Shown: positions 946-55,849 of the stretch, piece after piece
Layout: each line of letters begins with the position of its first letter
Position numbering within the stretch: position 1 is the first letter of the stretch
Assembly (NCBI RefSeq): GCF_003946405.1
Contig: NZ_RHOG01000010.1
Location: 1-64,000 of the forward strand
Reading direction: 5' to 3'
DNA: 64,000 nucleotides
DNA from: Lacticaseibacillus yichunensis
Lineage (GTDB): Bacteria; Bacillota; Bacilli; Lactobacillales; Lactobacillaceae
Made by a program: the position numbers and the translations under genes
Notes under the pieces: model-generated
What the model was told of the DNA's origin: nothing
Databases searched by the model: none
Seen by the model: only the letters and a program-made list of their open reading frames with translations

Positions 946-1065
946 AGGGCGCGGGGGTCCGCGTTTATGGTGGGGCGGCTAGGTCGGCTCATGCGCGTAT
1001 GGCGCATGAGCCATCGAATGCATGAGACGCTTAAATGTCCCCATCATGCGGACCAAAGCCCAACA
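946..1065 (+). repeat. Hairpin repeat copy R1
   Basis: About 120 bp between the convergent GNAT and asnA genes. Arms: GGTCCGC (956-962) with GCGGACC (1048-1054); ATGGTGGGG (967-975) with CCCCATCAT (1039-1047, one G-T pair); apical stem GGCTCATGCGC (986-996) with GCGCATGAGCC (1002-1012). It is a member of the family found at 6748, 11974, 21972-22330 and 33157-33399, with different bases in the paired positions. Confidence 0.8.
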
Positions 1066-6712: not shown

Positions 6713-6747
6713 GTTGGGCGGGAACGCTCGGCGCCACACCCTTCTCC

Positions 6748-6868
6748 AGTTGGGTTCCGGTGCGCATGGTGGGGACATCTAACTGTCTCGTGCGCTCGGT
6801 GGCTAAGTGCGCCACCAAGCACCCGAGCCAAGCTAGCTGCCCCACCATCCCGCGCACCTCCACACCCT
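6748..6868 (-). repeat. Hairpin repeat copy R2
   Basis: A full-length element in reverse orientation between convergent genes. Arms: GTGCGC next to ATGGTGGGG (6766-6774), pairing with CCCCACCAT (6840-6848) and GCGCAC. The outer base pairs differ from R3 (GCTCGC/GCGAGC) by compensating changes. Confidence 0.8.
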
Positions 6869-8087
6869 ATTTTCGTAGTTGTGGTGCGGCGAACCAGATG
6901 AAGATAAAGTTGAGCAGGAGGAGCATCGCAGTCGAGATGAATACAACGTTGTAGTCGAAGAGGCCGGCTAAGGTGCCGCCGAGCAGGGAGCCGAACATGT
7001 TGCCGAGGGCCTGGAAGCTCTGATTCCATGAAAAAATCGCACTGGTGGCGCTTGCCGGCGAGTTTTTCGTCAGCAGGGTCTGAATGGTTGGAAACAGCGC
7101 GCCATCGGAGATCCCGACGAACAAGCGCAGCACGCCAAGCGCAACGACGCTGGTGACAAAGCCCTGTGGGAGATAGACAAGGACGGCAAAGAGATAGCCG
7201 GCGACGCGAATTTTGCCTGAACCATGTTTATCGCCATACGCCCCGAGCCGCGGCGCCGTGAGAATGTTGGAGATTCCGGGTAAGGCCGCGATGATGCCGG
7301 CAATCAGGGCAACCGGCCCGGCATTATGCATCAACTCTTTGACATACAGACTGATGATCGGTGAGATCGACGTGTTCCCGAGCTGCACGATCATGGTCGA
7401 GATCAACAAGATGATAATCAACTTCGGATTGGCGAATTGGCCGAGCAGCCGCTGTAGCGCGTTGCCACCTGCGTCTTTTGGCCGCGGTGGGACAGGGACG
7501 AATTGCTCTTTGACCAGCGTGGCTGACAGGATGCCGGCGATGAAAAGTAAGGCGGCGGTGATGAAAAAGGTGTCGCGAATCGAGAAAAATTGTGCGAGGA
7601 TGCCGCCTAAGATCGGCCCCATCAACATGCCTGACGTCGAGCCGGTGACCAGGGTGCCAAGGGCTTTGCCAGCGTGTTCGCGCGGTGTTTGCGACGCGAT
7701 CAGCGCCTGGGCATTTGAGATGAACCCGGAAAAGACGCCTTGCAGGGCACGCAAGGCGATCAACTCCCAGATGTTGGTGACCAGGCCCATCAAAAACATG
7801 GCGGCGGCCATCCCCATCGACGCGCGGATCAGCATGATCTTGCGGCCTTTGCGATCGGCCAGCGCGCCCCACATCGGTGAGACGATCGCGGTGACGAAGA
7901 AAGTCGCCGCATAGACGATGCCCGAGTAAAAGCTGACTTCGGCCTTGGTGAAATCGCCGAGTTGCCCAACATATAGGGACATGAACGGGGTGATCTCTGA
8001 AAACGCGATGCCTGCCACGAAGGTGCACCCCCATAATATCGTTAAGTTGCGCCGCCACGGGCTGTTTTGTCGTTGTTCCTCGTCCAT
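6867..8087 (-). CDS. Major facilitator superfamily drug-efflux-type transporter
   Basis: A 406-residue, 12-segment DHA1-type MFS protein. Between segments 2 and 3 is the motif-A loop GALADRKGRK, and GPILGGILAQ in segment 5 fits the antiporter motif C of multidrug exporters. Related proteins (MdtG/NorA-like) export drugs by proton exchange; the substrate is unknown. The ATG at 8087 is preferred over one 9 bases upstream because GGAAGG then has normal spacing. No partner gene. Confidence 0.85.
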   Translation of the reverse strand: MDEEQRQNSPWRRNLTILWGCTFVAGIAFSEITPFMSLYVGQLGDFTKAEVSFYSGIVYAATFFVTAIVSPMWGALADRKGRKIMLIRASMGMAAAMFLMGLVTNIWELIALRALQGVFSGFISNAQALIASQTPREHAGKALGTLVTGSTSGMLMGPILGGILAQFFSIRDTFFITAALLFIAGILSATLVKEQFVPVPPRPKDAGGNALQRLLGQFANPKLIIILLISTMIVQLGNTSISPIISLYVKELMHNAGPVALIAGIIAALPGISNILTAPRLGAYGDKHGSGKIRVAGYLFAVLVYLPQGFVTSVVALGVLRLFVGISDGALFPTIQTLLTKNSPASATSAIFSWNQSFQALGNMFGSLLGGTLAGLFDYNVVFISTAMLLLLNFIFIWFAAPQLRK

Positions 8088-11877: not shown

Positions 11878-11973
11878 GACAACGAAACTATACGGCCTTG
11901 GGGCGGGGGTGTCAACAAGAATATTTGAAAAGCGGGCCTGCCACCCCTCAGTGCTCGGCTTTGCATCCTTTGC

Positions 11974-12094
11974 AGTTGGGCTCCGGCTCGCATGGTGGAA
12001 ACATCTAGGCGTCTTAGGCACTCGGTGGCAAGGAGCGCCACCAAGCACCTGAGCCGACCTAGCTGTTCCACCATCCCGCGAGCCTCCGCACCCT
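11974..12094 (-). repeat. Hairpin repeat copy R3
   Basis: A complete reverse-oriented copy in the gap between divergent operons. ATGGTGGAA (11992-12000) pairs with TTCCACCAT (12066-12074), where R2 has GGGG/CCCC; the outer stem is GCTCGC/GCGAGC. Both arms changed together. The rest of the 350-base gap holds the GntR operator and the ribosome site of the exporter. Confidence 0.8.
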
Positions 12095-19592: not shown

Positions 19593-19650
19593 GGGGTGCG
19601 GTGGCCCGCGGGATGGTGGAACGACTAACTTGGCTCGGCGCGTTTGCCGC
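19593..19650 (+). repeat. Hairpin repeat, half copy R4
   Basis: The 5' half of the 120-bp element (GGGGTGCGG, then GCCCGCGGGATGGTGGAA and AACTTGGCTCG) sits directly after the leader terminator; the pairing 3' half is missing or decayed. Confidence 0.65.
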
Positions 19651-19706
19651 ACACTGCCTTTGGGAAAAGATCGCGTGCACCTTCTTTGCAGGAAAGGATG
19701 ATGCAG

Positions 19707-21255: not shown

Positions 21256-21873
21256 TCAGGCGATTTTTGTCGCGGTGCGCCAAGGCTTGATATGTGTGGC
21301 TGCGCTCAGGGCTGCGACGATCAGCGGCGTGATGATGACGGCGCCGATCACTTCAGGAATGCCATTGGTCACCACCAGGCCGCCCAAAACTTTCAAGAGG
21401 CCACTTGACGGGACCTTATAGGCAGAGGCGACTTGGTCGGTATACAGAATGCCCATGAAAAACAGCACGCCGATGGTATTGGTCAAAGTGGCGAAAAAGG
21501 CGGCAACGATGCTGGCCACGGACACGCGGTGCACCAGCTTGTAGACGCCCCAGAAAACCAGCGCCGCCACGAGCCCAACCAGCACCCGTGGGACGACGGA
21601 GACCAACGGATTGGTGAAGACCAATGTATCCAGTGGCGTCGTTGGGGCGGTGTAGGCTCGGACGATCGTCATGACGCCCCAGACGAGGCCGACGAAAATG
21701 CCGTCCCATGGCCCAAGCATGATCGCCGCAACGATCACGGTGATGTGGATGATGGTCAGTGACATGAATCCAAGCGGAATGAAGCCGAACATCGGCACCG
21801 TCGCCTGCAGGGCAATAATGGCAATAAACAAAGCGCGAATCACGATTTTAAACGTATGTTGACGATCGCTCAT
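21256..21873 (-). CDS. ECF transporter S component (PanT/COG4684-like)
   Basis: A 205-residue membrane protein with about six segments, a substrate-capture subunit that docks to the shared EcfAA'T module encoded elsewhere. IHITVIVAAIMLGPWDG followed by GLVWGVMTIVRAYT and TNPLVSVVPR match the group predicted to carry pantothenate; the substrate is an inference. The ATG at 21873 follows TTGGAG at good spacing, giving a typical S-component N-terminus. Confidence 0.82.
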   Translation of the reverse strand: MSDRQHTFKIVIRALFIAIIALQATVPMFGFIPLGFMSLTIIHITVIVAAIMLGPWDGIFVGLVWGVMTIVRAYTAPTTPLDTLVFTNPLVSVVPRVLVGLVAALVFWGVYKLVHRVSVASIVAAFFATLTNTIGVLFFMGILYTDQVASAYKVPSSGLLKVLGGLVVTNGIPEVIGAVIITPLIVAALSAATHIKPWRTATKIA

Positions 21874-21971: not shown

Positions 21972-22092
21972 AGGGTGCGGAGGCCCGCGGGATGGTGGGG
22001 CAGGTAGTTTGGCCTGGGCGTTTGATGGCGCACTTAGCCATCGGGCGACCGGGTCAACTACATGTCCCCGCCATGCGGGCTGGAGCCCAACT
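21972..22092 (+). repeat. Hairpin repeat copy R5a (tandem array)
   Basis: A 121-bp element. GCCCGC (21983-21988) pairs with GCGGGC (22075-22080); ATGGTGGGG (21992-22000) with CCCCGCCAT (22066-22074); apical GATGGC with GCCATC. Separated from the next copy by GTAT. Confidence 0.88.
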
Positions 22093-22096
22093 GTAT

Positions 22097-22217
22097 AGGG
22101 TGCGGAGGCCCGCGGGATGGTCGTGCAGCGAACTTGGCTCGGGTGCTTGGTGGCGCACCTTGCCACCAAGTGGACGAGCCAGTTAGATGTCTCGACCATG
22201 CGGGCTGAAGCCCAACT
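22097..22217 (+). repeat. Hairpin repeat copy R5b (tandem array)
   Basis: 121 bp. ATGGTCG (22117-22123) pairs with CGACCAT (22193-22199), where R5a has GGTGG/CCGCC: both strands changed. Second stem AACTtGGCTCG with CGAGCCAGTT; apical CTTGGTGG with CCACCAAG. Followed by GTAT. Confidence 0.88.
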
Positions 22218-22221
22218 GTAT

Positions 22222-22330
22222 AGGGTGCGGAAGCCCGCGGGATGACGGGGCAGGTAGTTTGGCCTAGGCGGTTGATGGCGCACTTAGCCATTCAGCTACA
22301 TGGCCCCGTCATTCGGACCGACACACAACT
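22222..22330 (+). repeat. Hairpin repeat copy R5c (tandem array)
   Basis: 109 bp. ATGACGGGG (22242-22250) pairs with CCCCGTCAT (22304-22312). The 3' arm has a small deletion. Copies R5a-c start exactly 125 bases apart. The 474-base gap between the ECF gene and the TetR gene is almost entirely this array. Confidence 0.85.
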
Positions 22331-22347: not shown

Positions 22348-22953
22348 ATGCCAGTTCGAACCAACGAACAGCGAAAAGCCGAAAAGCGCGCGCAAATTCT
22401 GAGCGCCGCCAAAAAAGTCTTTCAGGAAAAGGGCTTTTCTGATGTGACGATGAAGGATGTGATCGATGAGGCCGGCATCAGCCGCGGTGGTATTTATCTG
22501 TATTTTTCATCGATCGATGCACTGTTTACCGAAGTGCTCAGCGAGCGCAACAGTCACAGTCTGCAGGATATGCAAGATGCAATCGCAGCTGGCACGGCCT
22601 TTGAGCAGCTCTGGCAGATCTATCTGGCCGGACAAAAAGAGCGGCTGCTGCACCGGGTGGACAGCGGTCTACTTCAGGCGGTCTACGAATATTATTTCAC
22701 GCATAAAACGGCGGCGGATCATGCTTTCCAGCGCGCCCAATTTGTGTTGATCAAAGAGACCATCATGGTGATGCTTCAGCAAGGCGTTGCGCAAGGGGTG
22801 CTGACCGAGCAGCCACTGGCCGTGATCGCGGAGCACATCATGATCGTGATCGAAGGTTTGTCGGTGATGGCCTTGACTGGCGGCATCGACGAGGCCCGCA
22901 TCGACGCCCAATTTTCCCAGCTGAATCAACTGCTGCCCCGCACCGCGGGCTGA
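22348..22953 (+). CDS. TetR/AcrR-family transcriptional regulator
   Basis: A 201-residue repressor with an N-terminal TetR helix-turn-helix (VTMKDVIDEAGISRGGIYLYF, residues about 29-49) and a helical ligand domain resembling the YfiR/YcdC-like group. The ATG at 22348 follows AAAGGAG. It lies 53 bases upstream of a ThrE-type exporter gene and probably regulates it. Confidence 0.9.
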   Translation: MPVRTNEQRKAEKRAQILSAAKKVFQEKGFSDVTMKDVIDEAGISRGGIYLYFSSIDALFTEVLSERNSHSLQDMQDAIAAGTAFEQLWQIYLAGQKERLLHRVDSGLLQAVYEYYFTHKTAADHAFQRAQFVLIKETIMVMLQQGVAQGVLTEQPLAVIAEHIMIVIEGLSVMALTGGIDEARIDAQFSQLNQLLPRTAG

Positions 22954-33156: not shown

Positions 33157-33278
33157 AGGGTGTGGAGCGGGGCGCTTAGGTCTGAGTAGGTAGTTTGGCC
33201 TGGACGATTGATGGCGGACTATGCCATCGAGCGGCTGGGTCGACTACCTGTCTCAGACCTGCCCCGCGGAACCCAACT
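33157..33278 (+). repeat. Hairpin repeat copy R6a (tandem array)
   Basis: 122 bp. CGGGGC (33168-33173) pairs with GCCCCG (33261-33266); AGGTCTGAG (33178-33186) pairs perfectly with CTCAGACCT (33252-33260); apical GATGGC/GCCATC. Separated from R6b by AG. Confidence 0.88.
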
Positions 33279-33280
33279 AG

Positions 33281-33399
33281 AGGGTGCGGAGCCGAGCGTA
33301 TAGGGGTGGGTAGCTAATTTGGCCCTGGCGCATGGGGCGACCTTGCCCCGAGCGACTGGGCCAATTAGATGTCCCACCCCTGCTCGGCGGAACCCAACT
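33281..33399 (+). repeat. Hairpin repeat copy R6b (tandem array)
   Basis: 119 bp. GCCGAGC (33291-33297) pairs with GCTCGGC (33382-33388); AGGGGTGGG (33302-33310) pairs perfectly with CCCACCCCT (33373-33381); CTAATTtGGCCC pairs with GGGCCAATTAG; apical GGGGC/GCCCC. Compared with R6a, both arms carry matching substitutions. Confidence 0.88.
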
Positions 33400-33401
33400 A
33401 G

Positions 33402-33480
33402 AGGGTGCGGAGCCGAGCGTTTAGGGGTGGGTAGGTAGTTTGGGCCGGGCGTGCGATGGCCCACTTGGGCGGTCGCTTAC
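33402..33480 (+). repeat. Hairpin repeat, truncated copy R6c
   Basis: The 5' arm (GCCGAGC then AGGGGTGGG) and apical stem (GCGA..GCCC/GGGC..TCGC) are present, then the element stops immediately beside the stop codon of the aldo-keto reductase gene. The 386-base gap consists mostly of this array. Confidence 0.75.
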
Positions 33481-55743: not shown

Positions 55744-55789
55744 ATGTCTTTACTATGGAAGAAACGGTGCTGAAAGATGACGTCAAGGA

Positions 55790-55849
55790 TGCCATCAATC
55801 GTCCAGATCGAGCTACCTGCTCAGGGCTAAACGCCCCGCTACGCACCCT
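55790..55849 (-). repeat. Hairpin repeat, half copy R7
   Basis: Reads on the minus strand as the 5' half of the family (AGGGTGCG, AGCGGGGCG, CCTGAGCAGGTAG, TGGACGATTGATGGC), closest to R6a, then stops at the apical loop. The 3' half is absent. Confidence 0.7.

Follow-up and report, generated by a model that had tools for sequence, protein, structure and literature searches.

Intergenic hairpin arrays of Lacticaseibacillus and other Bacilli that keep their shape while their sequences turn over

Several families of intergenic repeats that form stem-loops have been described from bacterial genomes. One survey characterizes bcr1 as an intergenic repeat of the B. cereus group, 147-167 nt long with a conserved predicted structure, cites a title that ascribes to it the characteristics of a mobile element, and describes Efa-1 as a 163-nt pair of stem-loops; both are similar in kind to the hairpins reported here (PMC2267715). 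The same survey lists bcr1, ERIC, BOX, RUP, Efa-1, and Sta-1 for other genomes and names no Lacticaseibacillus in its table of 92 stem-loop families (PMC2267715). REPs, according to another source, are mostly 20-40 nt long, carry a GTAG-like foot, alternate in orientation within arrays, and are accompanied by an encoded RAYT, and their composite arrays vary in length among strains (PMC2817692).

The family described here shares features with each of these groups. Like bcr1, it is an intergenic repeat of Bacilli with a conserved predicted structure, and like ERIC (RU-1), BOX, and RUP, which come from other hosts, it falls among the repeats of roughly 100-130 bp with stem-loops; these likenesses are of description rather than of compared sequences. 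To our knowledge, no description of bcr1 includes head-to-tail arrays, array-specific spacers, or a truncated last copy, and we know of no description of ERIC, BOX, or RUP with one-way tandem arrays or in-place replacement of whole stems. With REPs and REPINs the family has in common its many short intergenic palindromes in strain-variable arrays, but its units, about 120 nt long (111-125 nt among those examined across species), point in one orientation, lack a GTAG- or GTGG-type foot, and do not correlate with Y1_Tnp. Nearest in kind are bcr1, ERIC, and REP/REPIN, although the units did not prove to belong to any of them, bcr1 and ERIC having been compared by description. Integron attC sites are recognized by structure rather than sequence, have extrahelical bases, and form arrays of unlike units. 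We rejected an attC reading: the 3' GCCCAAC fits RYYYAAC in the species studied here, but the ends of other species, such as GCGCAACT, GCTCGACG, and GCTAGACA, break it, so that an RYYYAAC-like end occurs in only some species; in addition, the GTTRRRY partner is missing and no coding cassettes lie between units.

Our analysis began with a window of 64,000 nt, meaning the whole stretch of DNA that was analyzed, from a draft genome whose 73 contigs total 2.56 Mb (the host genome below). The organism is a Lacticaseibacillus sister to L. mingshuiensis. Specifically, the window is 90% identical to the L. mingshuiensis record across 6.3 kb, and the TetR-family protein adjoining the array at 21972-22330 is 98% identical to one from L. 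mingshuiensis. The L. mingshuiensis genome used for comparison was G021, of which 5752 bases aligned at 100% to the species record. Gene calls around arrays came from a simple hexamer script.

The window holds eight full or nearly full copies and three half copies of an intergenic hairpin of about 121 nt. A first-pass annotation of this DNA had placed three tandem units 125 nt apart with the same 4-base spacer, and further copies at 946, 6748, 11974, 33157, and 33281; the array is as described, its units starting at 21972, 22097, and 22222 with the spacer GTAT both times, and all five other copies are present. Also present are a copy truncated at its 3' side, at 33402, and two half copies, one at 19594 and one at 55784. 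Folded as RNA, the eight units have z scores of -3.9 to -8.9 against dinucleotide shuffles. The features are as follows, with bit scores from R1, a covariance model built from 88 copies of the host genome.

946..1065, + strand: full hairpin unit, single (R1 100.4 bits; RNA fold -64.3 kcal/mol, z -5.0)
6722..6742, - strand: 3'-truncated last copy, about 21 nt, after spacer GGAGA (by eye)
6748..6868, - strand: full hairpin unit (R1 136.4 bits)
11936..11969, - strand: 3'-truncated last copy, about 34 nt, after spacer GCAA (by eye)
11974..12094, - strand: full hairpin unit between divergent genes (R1 129.1 bits; gene calls)
19594..19662, + strand: 5' half of a unit, after a T-tract (nhmmer 2-72)
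21972..22092, + strand: unit 1 of the 21972-22330 array (R1 133.8 bits; fold z -6.4)
22093..22096, + strand: array-specific spacer GTAT (sequence)
22097..22217, + strand: unit 2 of the 21972-22330 array (R1 122.4 bits; fold z -5.8)
22218..22221, + strand: array-specific spacer GTAT (sequence)
22222..22330, + strand: unit 3 of the same array, internally shortened to 109 nt (R1 58.3 bits)
33157..33278, + strand: unit 1 of a second array (R1 119.1 bits)
33281..33399, + strand: unit 2 of the second array, spacer AG on both sides (R1 109.1 bits)
33402..33467, + strand: 3'-truncated last copy of the second array (nhmmer 1-65)
55784..55849, - strand: 5' half of a unit, alone (nhmmer 1-65)

The array at 21972-22330 stands between a gene for an ECF transporter substrate-specific component (21256-21873; Pfam PF12822) and a divergent TetR-family gene called at 22348 (Pfam TetR_N), 17 nt short of which unit 3 stops. 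The first two bases of the unit at 6748..6868 finish the stop codon of the gene at 6867-8018 (distance -2), an MFS_1 gene by Pfam. Where the window has the half copy at 19594..19662, L. mingshuiensis has a copy of 117 nt.

Each unit folds into a single rod. A basal helix of 4 bp with a bulged T5 is followed by a 3x3 internal loop, in which GNA faces NGA, and then by a helix of 7 bp and an asymmetric bulge in which GCG-NTTAG or GGGA stands opposite CTGC or GTTGC; in the upper rod, long helices interrupted by conserved bulges lead to a short loop. Bulges and internal loops are fixed and stem letters are free, with units starting, for example, in AGGGTG, AGGCTG, CAGAGC, or AAAAGC. The ends, which had been taken as conserved and unpaired, in fact pair together (G3-C, G4-C, bulged T5, G6-C, C7-G), and 11 copies carry a double change of the basal C7-G pair to U-A.

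Covariation of the arms, also proposed at the outset, was borne out beyond both shuffle and slid-partner controls. Among the 88 host-genome copies, standard pairs make up 95.9% of 3311 pair cells (80.2% in shuffles), changes on both sides are found at 26 of the 38 pairs, and double-change cells number 561, compared with 186 after shuffling and no more than 96 when partners are slid. A wider alignment, fitted to the model and with 65 of its 81 rows from other genomes, is paired in 91.1% of 2909 cells and has both-side changes at 37 of the 38 pairs; alignments A2-A4 were all fitted to the covariance model. A large share of the covariation appears to have been inherited in stem blocks common to several copies, and the cell counts therefore overstate the number of independent compensatory events. 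The mismatches that do occur are asymmetric. G-T pairs outnumber A-C mismatches by 361 to 43, about 8:1 on one strand, in the 88 host copies, and by 221 to 45 and 169 to 63 in two wider alignments, the last and most distant of which has 336 other mismatches as well among 2661 cells. Because strand-blind processes would equalize the two, this excess indicates that selection acts on the fold of the strand that starts with AGGGTG, as RNA or single-stranded DNA. When two units were folded as DNA, z was -5.3 and -5.5 for that strand and -1.7 and -4.8 for the opposite one. Taken together, the covariation, the fold kept in other species, and the strand asymmetry support the first-pass suggestion of a structure under selection.

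Units of this species and of L. mingshuiensis lie head to tail with spacers of 0-7 nt. Adjacent spacers, in strings that carry one extra T, are identical in 31 of 67 cases (2.5 expected), and spacers are mostly array-specific; the last two bases of the spacer equal those preceding the array in 26 of 64 cases (8.7 at random). None of eight aligned cases offered a clean empty site flanked by a target duplication. In 66 of 77 arrays the last full unit is followed by another AGGGTGCG-like start (at most two mismatches), as opposed to 379 of 5600 random places. Of the 14 profile copies below near-full length, 12 are missing their 3' portion and one its 5' portion, and the remaining one is almost complete. 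The 5' edge of arrays is fixed, and the last copy is usually 3'-truncated.

Gene context was assessed for 84 of 85 arrays. The array start falls -3 to +6 nt from a co-oriented stop codon in 22 of the 84, representing 15 distinct places since seven were seen in both species and counted separately, compared with 1.0% of 4000 randomly placed intergenic points; for nine of the 22, the stop codon is completed by the opening bases of the unit itself. No co-oriented stop codon lies within 1 kb upstream of 41 of the 84 arrays. On the 3' side, with distances measured from the last profile-detected unit, none of the 84 comes within -3 to +6 nt of an opposite-strand stop. Several other arrays begin right after a T-tract, and a terminator was scored at the start of 7 of 84 arrays versus 1.8% of random points by a crude test that missed T-tracts visible by eye. 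All four gene arrangements flank arrays, with one small gene overlap among 42. Array strand showed no bias relative to replication in 37, 47, 16, and 14 arrays, among the matches listed, of four genomes of 1-3 contigs, with base 1 assumed to be the origin and one genome length rounded.

Neighboring units are, for the most part, not each other's closest relatives. The comparison covered the 199 full copies, 130 of them from the host genome, with truncated copies dropped and copies outside joined contigs binned by 3 kb, which split one array. The median best identity of host units was 73.6% within the same array (104 units) versus 89.1% with other arrays (130 units). Near-twins of at least 95% within the same array exist for 16 of the 104 units, and only two host-genome pairs, which have a partner in common, reach at least 96% across different arrays. 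Because neighbors mostly resemble each other less than they resemble units of other arrays, we rejected tandem duplication as the sole source of arrays. By position, likeness within arrays is higher than that between arrays by over 0.1 at positions 7, 9, 83, and 112 alone, with 114 at the limit, and at core positions it is at or below the between-array level; this comparison rests on 82 of 99 within-array pairs, the near-identical ones being left out, an omission that in itself depresses the within-array values. Position 83 aside, edges and spacers thus go with the array, while cores are shared among arrays.

The comparison with L. mingshuiensis, sampled over 406 kb in regions picked partly for containing arrays (which biases copy density), separates place from sequence. 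About 170 bases upstream of the array at 21972-22330 are identical in both sister species, but its three hairpins match the best unit of the orthologous array at only 76, 79, and 69% identity. Among 49 host units in syntenic arrays, identity peaks at 65-69% and again at 90-94%, with 19 units at 87% or more and 23 at 79% or less; for 31 of the 49, the best match in the 406 kb sampled lies outside the orthologous array. The place itself is mostly kept: 28 of 33 host arrays with both flanks matched have at least 97 bases there in L. mingshuiensis. Three sister-species cases (6, 21, and 71) differ by whole units with the truncated copy retained, and another (18) has a collapsed hairpin. Such gains and losses could be homologous exchange of units.

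Plasmids provide similar comparisons. In two L. paracasei plasmids, the flanks match at 565 of 572 and 558 of 560 bases and the hairpins at 93 of 119 columns, and a Pediococcus inopinatus plasmid carries the hairpin of the first exactly (117/117). Both L. plantarum plasmids examined, out of four found, share this locus, but their hairpin has collapsed so that just its 3' end is left. At a second locus, four L. paracasei plasmids examined, out of six listed, have only a remnant, one has a single unit, and one has two units plus that remnant. In L. paracasei pWX3, the arms of the extra unit are almost perfectly complementary, as if freshly made or corrected. In another instance, on host contig C73 (L038:1501-1740), two adjacent units have their 3' halves reciprocally swapped, so that the arms of each are mismatched, which looks like the footprint of recombination at the apex.

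The family is abundant in the host genome and uneven beyond it. One unit as a BLAST query gave 83 matches in the host genome, an iterated profile run over the window and selected host loci gave 107 non-overlapping copies in 49 arrays, 93 of them near full length, and R1 gave at least 119 matches; 90 copies fall in 409 kb of host sequence chosen partly for arrays. The covariance-model search of related genomes that had been suggested found R1 matches in 27 of 30 Lacticaseibacillus genomes, including the host, with counts ranging from no match in three to at least 119 (R1) or at least 150 (R2). Within the order, model R2 matched 63 of 395 genomes, belonging to 24 of 80 genera, and within the class Bacilli 21 of 398 genomes, belonging to 11 of 146 genera; in a phylum-wide sample it matched 3 of 398, the host genome and two more Bacilli, with none outside Bacilli. 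Searches over more than 40 genomes ran with stricter filters, and R1 and R2 matches may contain a few antisense hits to the same palindromes. Ten chosen genomes, seven of them single-contig, have from 9 to at least 150 R2 matches each, and 18 of 38 distant loci have two or more units. Copies occur on plasmids of Lacticaseibacillus and Pediococcus: a plasmid search with a unit of genome G042 returned 15 records, of which R2 did not confirm the one from Latilactobacillus, and plasmid searches with the window array and two distant arrays returned none. Two queries of phage records and two patterns against viral contigs gave no match.

Some units sit inside other features. In a related genome (G025, L183:1328-1765), a helix loop of a T-box leader, before the antiterminator, contains a full unit followed by a mini unit (23.7 bits) and a truncated copy recognized by eye, in sense orientation, and the leader with its insert still matches RF00230 (93.5 bits; threshold 93). 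Downstream of it (L183:1830-1960), an imperfect tandem repeat of about 62 nt is visible by eye, with a motif like CAACTCGTTCACAGA..TTCTGTGATCAAGTTCAGAGC. In genome G041, units directly follow the same 40 bases in three contigs (L242, L243, and L244); in L242, Rfam identifies these bases as the 3' end of 23S rRNA, and the units precede 5S rRNA. In genome G663, some units are 93-97% alike in different neighborhoods, with the likeness ending at the unit edges. The T-box, 23S rRNA, and G663 cases fit insertion of a unit that is tolerated because it folds on itself. Near-identical units in L253 and L254 of G663 also share a flank and belong to a larger duplicated stretch, and in G120 (L246-L249) units lie within a larger repeat, about 40 nt on either side being similar between loci as well.

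We searched for a described family and a candidate enzyme. The possibility of a match to a described family, raised in the first-pass annotation, found no counterpart in Rfam 15, which had no match in the window; over 18 loci it gave five matches, to LSU rRNA, 5S, tRNA, TPP, and the T-box spanning the inserted array. Terminal inverted repeats of the MITE type were not found; pairing between the ends is limited to a bulged helix of 4 bp. The arrays are also not CRISPR arrays, since their units of about 121 nt differ from one another and it is the short spacers that repeat; a CRISPR-like model in which outer ends plus spacer form the repeat was set aside, since in the arrays examined the leftmost such repeat is not complete. 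The host genome has two Y1_Tnp (PF01797) matches, and Y1_Tnp and RVT_1 occur in 13 and 11, respectively, of the 30 Lacticaseibacillus genomes. PF01797 had no match in G005, G006, G011, G014, or G042, which have 43-115 R1 matches each, and the copy-rich G006, G011, and G042 have neither Y1_Tnp nor RVT_1. Mobilization by a Y1 transposase or reverse transcriptase was rejected on this ground: across the 30 genomes, neither profile follows copy number, and the search with these two profiles pointed to no enzyme.

Starting from the fold, the folding strand, the array anatomy, and the turnover documented above, we favor, with a probability of about 0.55, a selfish family of self-folding hairpins whose arrays grow by gain of units and diversify by exchange of contiguous cores. 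The units are non-coding, behave like selfish, non-autonomous elements, and belong to a family known so far only from Bacilli. Growth would occur by duplication or insertion of whole units and diversification by ectopic exchange of hairpin cores; because arms and loop are contiguous, a single exchange tract swaps both arms at once. The fold may be kept because only self-folding units are tolerated in leaders, 3' ends, and rRNA spacers, because a putative enzyme recognizes the single-stranded hairpin, or both. Several observations run against this reading: the two enzyme profiles pointed to no candidate, the eight aligned cases gave no clean empty site, just two host-genome pairs reach 96% across arrays, other near-identical copies have their flanks in common too, two phage queries found nothing, arrays mostly stay in place between sister species, and plain tandem duplication also occurs, as seen in the near-twins. 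A bolder version, tentative and in our judgment somewhat doubtful, is that the family is a new class of mobile element of Bacilli, a gene-free hairpin cassette of about 120 nt that a putative enzyme would recognize by shape, as single-stranded DNA or RNA, and insert beside residents to give ordered arrays, with evolution rapid enough that shape alone is inherited.

The fixed G-U-folding strand, the conserved bulges and loops, and the excess of array starts at co-oriented stop codons (22/84 versus 1.0%) would also suit functional RNA modules, serving in 3' end protection, as a terminator or processing signal, or as a sponge for an RNA-binding protein, with selection for that function keeping the fold. 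We consider this unlikely, given that 41 of the 84 arrays have no such stop within 1 kb upstream, that all four gene arrangements occur, and that more than 100 copies, often differing at the same place in sister species, are unlike site-specific regulators. It is similarly improbable that recombination alone accounts for the palindromes, through replication stalls, SbcCD-like cuts, repair from other copies that would spread and homogenize pairs of arms, and arm-to-arm templated correction that would restore complementarity, with no enzyme and no functional selection. Collapse does fit deletion across short direct repeats, copy number changes by whole units, the adjacent pair on C73 has swapped 3' halves and mismatched arms, and of 18 long runs that copies from different arrays have in common, 10 enclose the apex (the four symmetric ones involve one copy against four near-identical tandem copies). 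Nevertheless, strand-blind repair should neither yield G-T pairs at eight times the number of A-C mismatches nor preserve, across genera, the bulged T5, the 3x3 loop, and the GCG-NTTAG asymmetry, and it leaves first arrival at 49 or more separate sites unexplained. Arm-to-arm conversion alone, which the first-pass annotation had named as a competing explanation, would yield neither that excess nor the conserved bulges. Finally, the family might be a MITE- or REP-like repeat already published under another name, as the related kinds listed for other genomes in PMC2267715 (bcr1, ERIC, BOX, RUP, Efa-1, and Sta-1) could suggest; with no Rfam 15 family and no description found in literature searches (open full text, read as titles and abstract starts), we regard this as quite improbable.

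These loci change in sequence much faster than their flanks, which are 95-99% identical, and their shape stays fixed. This combination makes them a natural experiment on the origin of compensatory change, whether by selection, exchange, or templated repair, and the question of what machinery moves or exchanges the units is directly testable in the laboratory. Lacticaseibacillus, which includes well-studied food and probiotic species, carries the hairpins in abundance, and so they bear on strain typing, assembly, and annotation. More generally, since they are spread over Bacilli and no Rfam model represents them, a large family may have gone unnoticed.
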